Assembly: GCA_002010075.1 (NCBI GenBank)
Contig: MTMG01000018.1
Coordinates: 1-64,000 of the forward strand
DNA length: 64,000 bases
Reading direction: 5' to 3'
Origin: Methanomicrobia archaeon JdFR-19
GTDB lineage: Archaea > Halobacteriota > Methanosarcinia > DSM-18856 > Methermicoccaceae
Positions 19,748-59,862 of this stretch are shown piece after piece (the first letter of the stretch is position 1; the number at the start of each line of letters is the position of its first letter). The notes beneath the pieces were generated by a model. The model was not told the origin of the DNA and searched no databases. It saw only the letters and a list, made by a program, of their open reading frames with translations. A program made the position numbers and the translations under genes.

Positions 19748-19789
19748 GAGATAAAATTTAAAATAGCATTTGGTTAAAGTGAGTTTGTT

Positions 19790-19862
19790 GGGCTCGTGGT
19801 CTAGGGGTTATGACGCTACCCTTACAAGGTAGAGAACCCCGGTTCGAATCCGGGCGAGCCCA
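19790..19862 (+). tRNA. tRNA-Val (TAC)
   Basis: Acceptor GGGCTCG/CGAGCCC, anticodon stem CTACC/GGTAG with loop CTTACAA, T-arm CCCGG/CCGGG around TTCGAAT, discriminator A. CCA is not encoded. The next gene's ATG lies only two bases after the discriminator. Confidence 0.95.
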
Positions 19863-19864
19863 TC

Positions 19865-20275
19865 ATGTGTGATGAAGAACAGTACATTGCCCACTACATA
19901 AAGTCCCATTTCCAAGGGAAAGTTGTAGAGGTTGGGGTAGGTAAAAGAACTGGAGTCATGGATATGCTGAGAGAGATGGGAATGGAAGTGATTGGAGTTG
20001 ATGTGAATCCCATCCAAGGAGTTGTTTTCGATGACATATATAGACCAAACATTTCAATCTATTAGGGGGCTGAACTGGTTTATTCGATCAGACCACCCCC
20101 AGACATATGGTATAGCATAGCTCGAGTGTCTGCTACTGTGGGAGCTGAGCTAATAATTCGTCCTTTTTCGTTGGAGTACGTGGATCTCAGTGAATTTTAC
20201 GGAAAATAGAACGTTGTGAATTACGGGAGAGCAAGATTCATCCATTTTAAAGAGTCCAAAGTCTCAGGTATCTAA
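19865..20275 (+). CDS. UPF0146-family protein with two in-frame TAG codons
   Basis: A 136-residue Rossmann-like protein of unknown function. It has a methyltransferase-like VVEVGVGKRTGVMDML loop, GVDVNP and DDIYRPN. The frame then continues through TAG (20063-20065, codon 67) into GAELVYSIRPPPDIWYSIA and AELIIRPFSLEYVDL, both typical of the family. It passes a second TAG (20207-20209, codon 115) before TAA at 20273. Treating TAG as stop would cut the protein in the middle of its fold. It overlaps the convergent mscS by 12 bases. Confidence 0.82.
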
Positions 20276-31182: not shown

Positions 31183-32211
31183 TTAAATCGAGAATCTTAG
31201 AAGGGCGGCAACCCCTCCTATATGCAAAAGTCTCTTTCCAGCTTCAAACTCAGATGAAAGTATAACAACTTCTCCTCCACTCCTCTCAACATCTGTAAGT
31301 AGGGAGTCTATGTCGGTACCTTTATCCCTTTCTTCCCTCAAGATTTCATCCACCACGAGTAAAGTCTCAACAGCACCATATTCCACAGCTTTTTTTACTT
31401 CATCAAAGCCATAAGCTACGGCCTCTCCTTTGGATATCCTTCTGAGAACCTCGTCTATAAGTTTTGTCTCTTTTGTCAGTCTGAAATCTTCGAAAACTCT
31501 CTGAAGTACGCCCCTCCTTATAACTTCTATAAAACCTGGCATTCCACACGATGAAGAGCCTTCGACCATGATTTTCTTTGACATTTCTGCATCCTTTAGA
31601 TGCTCCAAGAAATCCTTTTTCGTAAAGCCTGGTCCTGCAACAATCACAACATCAACGTCTTGGGTACAATCCTTTAATGCTCTATAGACTTCATTAAAAA
31701 ACTCTTCTCGTTCATCTCTCTCCCCCCTCTTCCCATAACTTCTTGTGATGGTGCAGATCTCCTCAACCCCAAATTCCATCACTGCTCCAATAGATGCATA
31801 ACCCTCTTCAATCGTTAGAATTATGACAGAAGGTCTTTTTGAAGATTTTTCTGCTTCTTTGAGCCTCTCCAACTGGTCTTTCTTCCATTCCTTTATTATA
31901 GATACCTCGGTCATTTTCTCTATGTTTATGGTATGGTGAGAGCCCACATCCACACCATGCTCTATCACTCCCGACACTCTTAATCTGTTTGAAAATCTGT
32001 GAAATTCTACCTTTTCAACCCTTATACCCAATCTTACAGCTTTCTTTTCAGGTTTGTCTGGTCTAATTTTGTCTGATGCAACTTCAACAGCCCTTTTTGT
32101 TGTTGCAAAAATGAGGTCTCCTCTCTCGATTATATATTTGAGATGCCATAAATCGTCGAGAGTTTCGGGAATTACACTAACCTCTCCATCTTTCATTCTT
32201 GTAATCTTCAT
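31183..32211 (-). CDS. pelA: Pelota, mRNA surveillance / ribosome rescue factor
   Basis: A 342-residue archaeal Pelota (Dom34). The N-terminal Sm-like domain includes EVSVIPETLDDLWHLKYIIERGDLIFA and LGIRVEKVEFHRFSNRLRVSGVI. The central domain has VIVAGPGFTKKDFLEHL, and the C-terminal eRF1-like domain has AVAYGFDEVKKAVEYGAVETLLVVDE. It lacks the GGQ of release factors and, with aEF1A/ABCE1, splits stalled ribosomes. It ends the ftsY cluster; the ATG at 32211 is six bases after ftsY. Confidence 0.93.
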   Translation of the reverse strand: MKITRMKDGEVSVIPETLDDLWHLKYIIERGDLIFATTKRAVEVASDKIRPDKPEKKAVRLGIRVEKVEFHRFSNRLRVSGVIEHGVDVGSHHTINIEKMTEVSIIKEWKKDQLERLKEAEKSSKRPSVIILTIEEGYASIGAVMEFGVEEICTITRSYGKRGERDEREEFFNEVYRALKDCTQDVDVVIVAGPGFTKKDFLEHLKDAEMSKKIMVEGSSSCGMPGFIEVIRRGVLQRVFEDFRLTKETKLIDEVLRRISKGEAVAYGFDEVKKAVEYGAVETLLVVDEILREERDKGTDIDSLLTDVERSGGEVVILSSEFEAGKRLLHIGGVAALLRFSI

Positions 32212-32216
32212 AATTC

Positions 32217-33149
32217 TCACTCAAATATTCTCTCTATTAGCCAGTCTGGGTCAAATTTGACAAGGTCATCGTATCCCTGTCCAACACCAAAAAACAAAAT
32301 AGGCTTTTTTGTCTCGTATGAGATCGATATGGCAGCCCCACCCTTTGTATCTGCATCAAGTTTTGTTAGAATGCTTCCATCAAAATTCGTAATCGAGAGA
32401 AACCTTTTGGCTCTTTCAACTGCATCATTTCCCGCTGTTGCATCGTCTACAAATATTGTGAGGTCGGGTGGTGCTACTTTACATATCTTTCTGAGCTGTT
32501 CCATGAGATTCACATTCGTGTGCATCCTACCTGCGGTGTCTGAAAGGACGGCATCTATGTTCCTTGCCTTTGCATATGCAAGTGCATCATACAACACAGC
32601 TGCAGGGTCCCCCCCTGGCCTGTGTTTTATCACCTTTACATTCAACCTTTTAGCATGCTCATCAAGTTGCTGAATTGCACCCGCCCTGTATGTATCTCCG
32701 GCAGCAAGAACAACCGAATAACCCTTTTTCATGAGATAGTTCGCCATCTTTGCAATCGTTGTTGTCTTTCCAGTTCCGTTCACACCAACAAACAGCAAAT
32801 GAACCGGTCGATCTTTTGTATCAAAGAGTTTATCAAAATCACTTCTCCCAAAGTCATCCCCACACACAAGTATATCTCTTATCGCATCTTTGAGAGAGTT
32901 CTCCACAATCTTTTCAACATCCTCTCCTATCTTCCTCCTCTTTCCCACAAGTTTTTGTCTCACCCGCTCACAAATAGCCTCGGCAACATCAACAGCAACA
33001 TCACTCTCAAGGAGTCCAATCTAAAGCTCAAACAACAACCCATCCAATTCCTTTTCAGAGAGTATAAGCTCACCATCGAGAAGAGCCTTTGCCTTTTCAG
33101 TAAGACTTGCAGATTGTTTTTTTAACTTCTCCTTGAGAAAACCAAACAT
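32217..33149 (-). CDS. ftsY: Signal recognition particle receptor FtsY (in-frame TAG at codon 43)
   Basis: The SRP receptor GTPase that docks ribosome-SRP complexes at the membrane. From ATG 33149 the frame reads MFGFLKEKLKK and continues through ELDGLLFEL to a TAG (33023-33021). It then goes straight into IGLLESDVAVDVAEAI, the conserved FtsY N domain. The G domain has GVNGTGKTTT, DTAGRMHTN and TKLDADTKGGAA. Total 310 residues. Stopping at TAG would leave 42 residues; starting after it would remove most of the essential N domain. The start lies five bases behind pfdA. Confidence 0.93.
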
Positions 33150-33154
33150 ACAAA

Positions 33155-33592
33155 TCACTTTGGAAGGTACTGATTCAGAACTCTTCCCAGTTCCTCAAGT
33201 TGTTGTGTGAGTTCTCTGAGCGTCTTGCTCCCCTCTTCGTATGCTTTTGTTATATTGTCTTTTCTCTTTTTCAAAAACTCCTTTGCATCATTTATATCTT
33301 TTTCAACACTGAGTCCAGAACCTATCGTCACCATTACCTTGTCTGTGTTGGTAATCTTTGCATCTACAAATGCTCCAGCACCCACTGACATCTTCACATC
33401 TGTTCCACCCTTCTCAATCTCCTCGATAGCCATTACAGCCCTTTCAATCTCTCCCATGCTCATCTTCAGTATCTCAAGCTGTTGAGCTACTGATTCGGCC
33501 TCAGCTTGCAGTCTCTGGTATCTCGCATACATCAGCCCGATTTCTTCGCGTGAAGGGGTCTCTCTCGATGATGCTCCTTCCATTTCCCCCAT
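33155..33592 (-). CDS. pfdA: Prefoldin alpha subunit
   Basis: A 145-residue hexameric chaperone subunit. Two long coiled-coil helices (about 14-55 and 97-145) flank a central beta hairpin (SVGAGAFVDAKITNTDKVMVTIGSGLSVEKD). It captures unfolded protein for the thermosome. It lies between rpl18a and ftsY in the standard archaeal order. Confidence 0.93.
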   Translation of the reverse strand: MGEMEGASSRETPSREEIGLMYARYQRLQAEAESVAQQLEILKMSMGEIERAVMAIEEIEKGGTDVKMSVGAGAFVDAKITNTDKVMVTIGSGLSVEKDINDAKEFLKKRKDNITKAYEEGSKTLRELTQQLEELGRVLNQYLPK

Positions 33593-44319: not shown

Positions 44320-45186
44320 GTGCACGAACTGGCATCTCTTTACAAACAATTAAGTCCCATCGACTTCAGGATACTTGTTGGAATAGAGAACGAAATGAGA
44401 AGGCATAAGTGGGTACCTATTGAAAACCTCCAGATATACACAGGAAGCAGTATAGAGCGTTTAAGAAAGCGACTCGAATTTCTCAGAGGCATGAAGATAG
44501 TTCTATACACGAAAACACCATACGAGGGTTATCAACTCTACTACCGGGGATACGACCTCCTGGCTCTGCACACATTTGTAAAGAGAGGGACACTCGATGC
44601 CGTTGGGGGGCAGATTGGGTTTGGAAAAGAGTCCGATGTCTTTGTTGGACTTAAAAATGAAAACAGAGTTGTGATAAAGCTACATAGAGCAGGCATGACA
44701 TTCAAAAAGATAAAGAGAGACAGAAGATACCTTGCGGACAAAGAACACTTTTCTTGGGTGTATGCATCAAGACTTGCAGCACAACATGAATTTAAGGCTC
44801 TCAAGATTCTCTATCCTGAGGTTAGTGTACCAGAGCCAATAGATCAGAATAGGCATGCAATAGTTATGGGATTGTGTGAAGGTGTGACTTTGGTTGACTG
44901 CGTACTCAAAGACCCCGAATTCTTTTTTGATGAGATTATTGAGAATACAAAAAAAACATACGAACTCGGAGTTGTCCATGGAGATCTGAGTGAATACAAC
45001 ATACTGGTTTCCCCAGATGGTATTACCATCATAGACTGGCCCCAATGGGTTGGAAGAGAGGAAATAAATGCAGACGAGCTTCTCCTCCATGATCTTTCGA
45101 TGATATGTAAATATTTTAAAAAGAAGTACTCTATAAAAAAAGACCCTGTTTCTCTTTTGAACTATTTCAAAAGTTAGAGAGGATGA
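44320..45186 (+). CDS. rio2: Rio2 serine/threonine kinase (TAG three codons before TGA)
   Basis: A 285-288-residue atypical kinase used in maturation of the 30S subunit. N-terminal winged helix (LSPIDFRILVGIENEMRRHKWV), P-loop region IGFGKESDVFVG, ATP lysine in RVVIKLHRAG, catalytic VVHGDLSEYNILV and metal-binding IIDWPQW. It starts with GTG overlapping the PHP stop. The frame meets TAG at 45175-45177, followed by AGA GGA TGA. It overlaps the convergent M50 gene by about 20 bases. Confidence 0.92.
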
Positions 45187-49457: not shown

Positions 49458-51290
49458 TCAGAGCTCACCCCTCCTTCTTAAAATGAACAACTCTCCCACA
49501 CATATAACCCCAAGAACCGCAAGGGCAATCCATGTCAAATCCATTCTATTCTCACTTCTTTCCAGAGTATATGTCGCACCACCGCCATACACACCAGGTT
49601 CCAAAGAACTTTTGAATCCTATATCGCTTTCAAGCGAGTCAAACATATTCACAGCATATGTTTTATCATCCACAGTGTATATCCCGACCTCGTCAAGGAG
49701 GAGGAGGTCTGTAATGACTTTTCCAGATGGTGTAATAACCTCCTTCATACTCCCAAGGGGCATCAGCATGCCGGCCTTCACATTGTAGGACTGTGCATCA
49801 CCAACGCCAGTTAACCAGTTTAGAAGCTGTAACCAGAATATTGGATACTCTGGCTTGCTCGGAAAATCATCCCATCCCCCCATATCACTCAGCCCCACAT
49901 AAACAACAACACCTCTCCCAAATTCCCAGTAAGAAATAACTGGATAACCCATCGAACTCTCAACAAGTGTTATCGAGCCTTCCTTGCCCATTGTTTCAAG
50001 TCCCTTAACCACAGATATCCCATTAAATGGTATTCCATCCACCACTTCGCTCTTCGAGACTACTGAAAGAATTGTTTCGTTGAAAGTTCCTTTGATTTCA
50101 ACGGGCAGTAGCTCCCCTATTGCCATATCGGACATCAAGCTTTCAGAACCGAGGACGACCAATTTTCCACCACTCTCAACGTACGCTTTCAACATCATTC
50201 CAAGCTCTTTTGATATCTTCGCTCCTTCATCTCCTACCACCACAACATCATACCCAGCAAGGCTTGGGATAGAAGACTGCCTCGTTATACTCTTAACATA
50301 GTTCTCTTTCATCACATCCATAGCAACGAGTGCAGGTGAAGTGCTATTTCCTATGAAGAGGATTTCTCTTGTACCTCGAGTGGGTATGTATATGTAAGCA
50401 ATGTTATCTGCTGAAAGAGAGTCCTTAACATTCAGTCTTATCACACTTGTCCCTGCAGACAGTTGTGTTGTAAGGAATTCACTCTCATCAGCTCCAAGAT
50501 TCAATGTTGTTTTTGTCTTTTTCCCACCGCTCTCCGCTTCAATCTCAACATTCCTTGGCTGATAATAACTTTTCACTTCGTAATGGAATATGTATCCTCC
50601 TTCACCGCTCTCAATCCACCCATCTACTATACCCACATTGTCAGTATTACCATTTCCCACAACCTCATCCACAACAACAGTATGACCGTTGCCTCTTGCC
50701 ATGCTTATTGCTCCGACTGGATTCTCTCCACGATAGTGTGAGAGGTCAGAAATCAAAACAATCGTACCTTCTCCCCGTGGTAATTTCTCAGAGGCGAGGA
50801 GTATGGCACTTGAGAGATCTGCAGAGGAGGCACCACATCTCAAACCTGACAAAACTTTCCTTGCCTCAGAGGGAGGGGCATCTTCGAGGGCGACCATCGG
50901 TCTGCTCTTTGCAACCACAATCGTATTCTTTGCACCCAGATAGCCTTCTGCCTTTTTTAACGCTTCTTCGAATCTGCCATCTGCCATCATGCTACCAGAT
51001 GCATCAATCACTATGGCAACATTTTGAGATGAGACTTGCTCACCGATAACAATGTAGGGCCCACTCAGTGCAAGTGCGAACAACAGAATTGCAATCAACT
51101 GGAGGGGGAGAAGGGTATCCTTTACGAGCTTTTTGAATATCCTTTCAAATCTTTTTGGGCGGTATGCCTCAAACAAAACAATTATCGAGGGCACTTCCAT
51201 TCTTACTTTTCTTGGTCTAAGAAGATAGGCAACTATAATTGGGATTGCTCCAAGCAAAGCAAGAAGTCCAAGTGGTTCTCCCAGAGGCAT
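49458..51290 (-). CDS. BatA-like protein with VWA domain
   Basis: A 610-residue membrane protein. The N-terminal BatA region (LGLLALLGAIPIIVAYLLRPRKVRMEVPSI) and a second helix (LQLIAILLFALALSGPYI) precede a VWA domain with MIDAS DASGSM near residue 96. There are a glutamine-amidotransferase-like segment (VVVVGDEGAKISKEL, KLVVLGSESL) and a C-terminal membrane helix. Such proteins work with MoxR ATPases and DUF58 proteins in cofactor insertion or surface protein maturation. Ten bases separate it from the DUF58 gene. Confidence 0.82.
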   Translation of the reverse strand: MPLGEPLGLLALLGAIPIIVAYLLRPRKVRMEVPSIIVLFEAYRPKRFERIFKKLVKDTLLPLQLIAILLFALALSGPYIVIGEQVSSQNVAIVIDASGSMMADGRFEEALKKAEGYLGAKNTIVVAKSRPMVALEDAPPSEARKVLSGLRCGASSADLSSAILLASEKLPRGEGTIVLISDLSHYRGENPVGAISMARGNGHTVVVDEVVGNGNTDNVGIVDGWIESGEGGYIFHYEVKSYYQPRNVEIEAESGGKKTKTTLNLGADESEFLTTQLSAGTSVIRLNVKDSLSADNIAYIYIPTRGTREILFIGNSTSPALVAMDVMKENYVKSITRQSSIPSLAGYDVVVVGDEGAKISKELGMMLKAYVESGGKLVVLGSESLMSDMAIGELLPVEIKGTFNETILSVVSKSEVVDGIPFNGISVVKGLETMGKEGSITLVESSMGYPVISYWEFGRGVVVYVGLSDMGGWDDFPSKPEYPIFWLQLLNWLTGVGDAQSYNVKAGMLMPLGSMKEVITPSGKVITDLLLLDEVGIYTVDDKTYAVNMFDSLESDIGFKSSLEPGVYGGGATYTLERSENRMDLTWIALAVLGVICVGELFILRRRGEL

Positions 51291-59521: not shown

Positions 59522-59659
59522 ATGCCAAAATCCAAGAGAAGAGAACTTGAGAGGAAAGGAGAGAACAAACTCAAAGGACTTGAGAAAAAGCTGATAGAAG
59601 AGAGTTTGGAAGGGATAGATGAAGAATTAGAGGAAATGGAGGAGGAAGAGATAATTTGA
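59522..59659 (+). CDS. Small charged protein, unknown
   Basis: A 45-residue open frame beginning MPKSKRRELERKGENKLKG and turning strongly acidic (LEEMEEEEII) at the C-terminus; helical throughout. No family recognised. It is probably real because its stop overlaps the start of the ThiS/SAMP-like gene (TTGA), and its own sequence supplies that gene's GGAGGAGG ribosome-binding site. Confidence 0.6.
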   Translation: MPKSKRRELERKGENKLKGLEKKLIEESLEGIDEELEEMEEEEII

Positions 59660-59862
59660 AGACAAGGTTGAAAGTGATAATGCCAGATGGTGAGACATTT
59701 GAATTAAAAACAGATGATTTTTCAAGCTATGAGGAGGTTCTTTAGAGTTTAAAGATAAACCCGGAGACCCATCTGATAATCAAAAATGGTAAAGCTGTTC
59801 CCACAGATGCAAAACCTACGAGTGGTGAGTTGAAAATATTGCGGGTTGTTTCTGGAGGTTAA
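59656..59862 (+). CDS. ThiS/MoaD/SAMP-like ubiquitin-fold protein with C-terminal Gly-Gly (in-frame TAG at codon 30)
   Basis: A 68-residue beta-grasp protein: LKVIMPDGETFELKTDDFSSYEEVL, then TAG (59743-59745). It continues SLKINPETHLIIKNGKAVP, ELKILRVVSGG and TAA. The ending in Gly-Gly is the thiocarboxylate/conjugation tail of sulfur carriers and SAMP modifiers. TAG falls in the helix between strands 2 and 3, so the fold is complete only if it is read through. TTG start with GGAGGAGG upstream. Confidence 0.82.

Follow-up and report, generated by a model that had tools for sequence, protein, structure and literature searches.

The genome of Methanomicrobia archaeon JdFR-19, a deep-sea subsurface relative of methane-makers, contains a short gene of the UPF0146 family that is crossed by two in-frame TAG codons. 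Does this gene give a full-length protein, and if so, what is inserted at TAG? We analyzed the surrounding 64,000 nucleotides (contig MTMG01000018.1, positions 1 to 64,000; termed the window) together with the whole genome. The assembly comprises 1,288,683 bases in 27 contigs with a GC content of 43.2%, and the window's contig has 78,121 bases. The published genome is given as 1,289 kb, 27 contigs, and 43.2% (MTMG00000000; PMC5369317). Judged from the sequence, it is very likely that UAG is a pyrrolysine sense codon throughout the genome of the JdFR-19 lineage and that termination is by UAA and UGA only.

Two genomes were used for comparison. The sister MAG, Methanosarcinales archaeon B74_G9 (Guaymas), belongs to the same genus and was independently assembled from a site other than that of JdFR-19. 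TAG, TAA, and TGA were compared against G006, a relative at class level, of which 1.2 Mb supplied a set of genes without overlaps.

A UPF0146 gene with two in-frame TAG codons

The UPF0146 gene (PF03686; 19865-20275, + strand) starts with ATG, has 136 codons including the two TAGs, and ends at TAA. As the preliminary description of this locus had noted, both TAGs are in frame, at codon 67 (20063-20065, + strand) and codon 115 (20207-20209, + strand); both are predicted to encode pyrrolysine. It had also placed the stretches SIRPPPDIW and ELIIRPFSLEY between and after the TAGs. The position between them is correct, but neither stretch follows the second TAG.

The profile search proposed there for the 136-residue conceptual protein gave a clear UPF0146 match: PF03686 scores 107.9 bits against the read-through protein (cut-off 26, E = 4.2e-31, profile positions 4-126 of 129). 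Residues 1-66 reach 45 bits by themselves, and residues 68-114 reach 42.4 bits. Thus, homology flanks the first TAG on both sides, and the region past it does match the family, as had been expected. The last 21 residues, which are too short for such a search, gave no PF03686 match alone; the sequence 'NVVNYGRARFIHF' aligns with the stretch 'VNxGxARFYLF' of the family in relatives. A homologue with a solved structure, MTH_1000 (PDB 2k4m), was matched over residues 19-128 (E = 4.9e-20). It is a member of the same family and has R where the first TAG-encoded residue stands in JdFR-19.

Opposite codon 67, the residue in relatives is R (15), Q (7), or one of K, E, L, A, and C. Opposite codon 115, R is present in 28 of 29 relatives and K in 1 of 29, with a 2-residue indel adjoining the aligned column. 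Internal stops were absent from the UPF0146 genes of relatives (80 searched, 40 over the cut-off). The family search of the JdFR-19 genome flagged the UPF0146 match with '2 TAG' stops inside, and a scan of the genome contigs with the UPF0146 protein as query returned no match. In the sister MAG, which is incomplete, a UPF0146 gene was not found.

By the standards of this genome, a density of two TAGs per 136 codons is somewhat on the high side (Poisson P = 0.002, calculated for the UPF0146 gene only). Genes with at least two TAGs amount to 12 of 651 in JdFR-19, with 7 expected. The UPF0146 gene appears not to be broken and its two TAGs appear ordinary for JdFR-19, which seems to use all its TAGs for pyrrolysine, those of essential genes included. 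The protein probably carries Pyl67 and Pyl115, and these are probably neutral replacements that are tolerated and not functional.

Internal TAG codons in the JdFR-19 genome

All JdFR-19 ORFs were compared with the G006 genes while one stop codon at a time was read through. Reference and query sets were both non-overlapping, as antisense shadow ORFs otherwise inflate the counts for all three stops. Internal TAG flanked by homology before and after it was found 91 times in 77 genes, internal TAA 9 times, and internal TGA 20 times; from our reading of the matches, the TGA cases are mostly antisense or rRNA-region shadows. The UPF0146 gene, treated in the preliminary description as a special case, is in fact one of many TAG-containing genes. 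Among the others are those for alanyl-tRNA synthetase (AlaRS), GatA, a YchF-type GTPase, DHQ synthase II, AroA, PyrD, HisA, a thiamine-pathway kinase, and FtsY. No second copy of AlaRS, GatA, or AroA is present in the JdFR-19 genome, and the sole protein related to FtsY is 38% identical to it.

FtsY, the SRP receptor (32217-33158, - strand; TIGR00064, E = 9e-97), is an independent TAG-containing core gene within the window; its codon 46 (33023-33021) is an in-frame TAG. On the same strand, it is followed by a gene for a Pelota-like relative of aRF1 (31183-32220). A short homologue of a reference ORF (59655-59859, + strand) has an in-frame TAG at 59743; this match is weak (E = 8e-9).

TAG as a terminator

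The C-terminus was covered by the comparison in 420 JdFR-19 genes. In 386 of these, a terminal TAA or TGA falls no more than 10 residues from where the gene is expected to stop. A TAG comes within that distance in 10 of the 420 and is the closer candidate in 2, so that at most 2 genes (about 0.5%) could terminate at TAG. In G006, TAG ends 126 of 651 orthologues. Four apparent TAG ends at 58-63 kb of contig C3 were left out of this count; the region was taken for rRNA genes, judged from its shadow-like matches. In the window, a gene at 44320-45183 (+ strand) terminates at TGA and has a TAG 3 codons earlier; of the two, the TGA agrees better with the expected terminus.

The release factor aRF1 of JdFR-19 keeps its NIKS, YxCxxxF, and GGQ motifs. 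A changed aRF1 as the cause of TAG reading is rejected, since these motifs are unchanged, and some termination at UAG is possible because they are intact. They also fit a dual role of UAG, in which it is a true stop partly suppressed by tRNA-Pyl, so that little UPF0146 protein is made and truncated products are degraded. Competition between Pyl-tRNA and release factor is a published model (PMC9499178), and a partly suppressed stop is the usual description for Methanosarcina. Still, TAG accounts for 4-5% of stops in Methanosarcina and for 1.6% in Ca. M. alvus (PMC4153887), well above the share in JdFR-19, and inefficient decoding would be costly for the single-copy AlaRS and GatA genes, which contain TAG. 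A dual role is therefore unlikely. The doubt raised early on that occasional read-through could serve a gene with two ambers was well placed: TAG is a sense codon in at least 77 genes and almost never a stop, and the pyrrolysine system is complete.

The pyrrolysine system

tRNA-Pyl (CUA) is encoded at C6:52999-53069, followed by pylSn and pylSc, and is the sole CUA tRNA among the 44 tRNAs detected. PylS is split into PylSn (TIGR03912, 94 bits) and PylSc (TIGR02367, 298 bits), both over the cut-off. The adjacent pylB (418 bits) and pylC (335 bits) lie at C6:6197-8343 and pylD (222 bits) at C18:1439-2215, all three over their curated cut-offs. The sister MAG also has tRNA-Pyl and pylSc, the latter on contig C51 (QMVI01000051.1).

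One TAG each is present in one of the three MtmB-family genes of JdFR-19 and in its single MttB gene. In the alignment, both TAGs share the canonical catalytic pyrrolysine column with pyrrolysine-using relatives of the Methanosarcinaceae type. The two MtmB-family genes without TAG are located at C14:15182-16522 and C9:38669-39991; TAG-less MtmB homologues occur in the sister MAG as well.

Separate pylSn and pylSc genes in JdFR-19 have already been reported in a review of archaeal codes, whose relevant passages assign JdFR-19 and Ca. Hydrothermarchaeum profundi to the PylSn+PylSc class of archaeal PylRS (Guo 2022, per PMC9499178). Those passages on the class contain no mention of genome-wide TAG reassignment in JdFR-19.

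Residues opposite TAG and conservation of TAG sites

Of 83 reference residues aligned with a TAG, 47 are R, K, E, Q, or M, with 20.1 expected (P = 3e-10). Hydrophobic residues and G or P are depleted at these sites (17 vs 42 expected). The sites look like tolerant positions occupied by a polar residue with a long side chain, which is consistent with pyrrolysine and no proof of it alone: the inserted residue cannot be read from substitution data by themselves, as TAG is often matched by R, by E, and by K alike. This predominance of R, E, and K in relatives would also suit a standard amino acid (e.g., Lys, Arg, Gln, or Glu) inserted by another tRNA or by mischarged tRNA-Pyl. We consider this very improbable given that tRNA-Pyl is the only CUA tRNA detected, that its cognate PylS and PylBCD are present, and that the MtmB and MttB TAGs stand at the catalytic pyrrolysine column.

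In a PF01877 RNA-binding gene (L229:3884-4336; in JdFR-19, G000, on contig C6 at about 50550-51000; minus strand), codon 26 is TAG in JdFR-19 and likewise in the sister MAG. Past this TAG, the two genomes differ at 13 synonymous and 5 nonsynonymous codons of 125. A UPF0146 pseudogene, or sequencing or assembly errors, would be conceivable for a MAG and for a short gene with two stops, as is typical of decay, but can be dismissed as virtually ruled out by the genome-wide pattern (the same TAG excess across 77 genes, many of them core), by the TAG shared with the sister MAG, which was assembled independently and comes from elsewhere, and by the UPF0146 gene itself, which lacks frameshifts and internal TAA or TGA and has intact motifs on either side of TAG.

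A probable genome-wide pyrrolysine code

For the preferred explanation, in which UAG encodes pyrrolysine throughout the genome, we propose the following steps. PylB, PylC, and PylD would make pyrrolysine, and the two-subunit PylSn+PylSc enzyme would charge tRNA-Pyl (CUA) with it. The Pyl-tRNA would then decode UAG, presumably efficiently enough to outcompete a normal-looking aRF1. As aRF1 looks normal, we infer a purge of UAG terminators and a Pyl-tRNA that wins the competition instead of a changed release factor. Once genes no longer ended at UAG, in-frame TAGs that newly arose at tolerant, mostly polar positions could persist, and UPF0146 would have acquired two of these, giving a full protein with Pyl67 and Pyl115.

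Genome-wide pyrrolysine use of UAG in JdFR-19 is probably obligate. MCR alpha (PF02745) had no match in the JdFR-19 MAG, which is about 90-97% complete. With pyrrolysine-codon MtmB and MttB but no MCR alpha match, JdFR-19 is possibly a methylamine-using non-methanogen, or the MAG may have a gap here. We only tentatively suggest the wider proposal that the code is obligate in the sense that UAG never terminates and that the translation and secretion proteins AlaRS, GatA, and FtsY need pyrrolysine to be made, and that MCR was lost, with the code outliving methanogenesis.

Comparison with known systems

JdFR-19 has pylT, pylS, and pylBCD in common with Methanosarcinaceae and Methanomassiliicoccales (e.g., Ca. 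Methanomethylophilus alvus). It also resembles them in having TAG at the MtmB/MttB catalytic column, TAG in ordinary genes, and few TAG stops. Their PylS, in contrast, is fused or lacks PylSn, and JdFR-19 differs from them further in the extent of TAG use, with TAG stops in such a small share of the mapped genes and at least 77 internal-TAG genes, AlaRS and GatA included. For Ca. M. alvus, 16 extra Pyl proteins were predicted (PMC4153887).

In JdFR-19, near-complete conversion of a stop to a sense codon would extend to core translation genes, in an uncultivated lineage with a two-subunit PylRS. Kivenson and co-workers reportedly described in Science in 2025 an archaeal 'Pyl code' with pyrrolysine as the meaning of every TAG codon, supported by proteomics. 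JdFR-19, for which incorporation is predicted here from sequence, would be like these archaea in using UAG as a genome-wide sense codon for pyrrolysine and would be a further case of this known kind of code. What may be new is how far TAG use extends in JdFR-19, in combination with a PylS in two parts and an MCR alpha gene that seems to be missing. The lineage would be a natural case in which to study how pyrrolysine can spread neutrally after the loss of UAG stops, with an unchanged release factor. In practice, at least 77 JdFR-19 proteins, including UPF0146 and FtsY, would be cut short or divided under standard annotation.

The UPF0146 start codon directly abuts a tRNA-Val gene (19789-19864), so that a Shine-Dalgarno site would not fit between them. 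UPF0146 is likely to be transcribed either together with the tRNA or as a leaderless mRNA.
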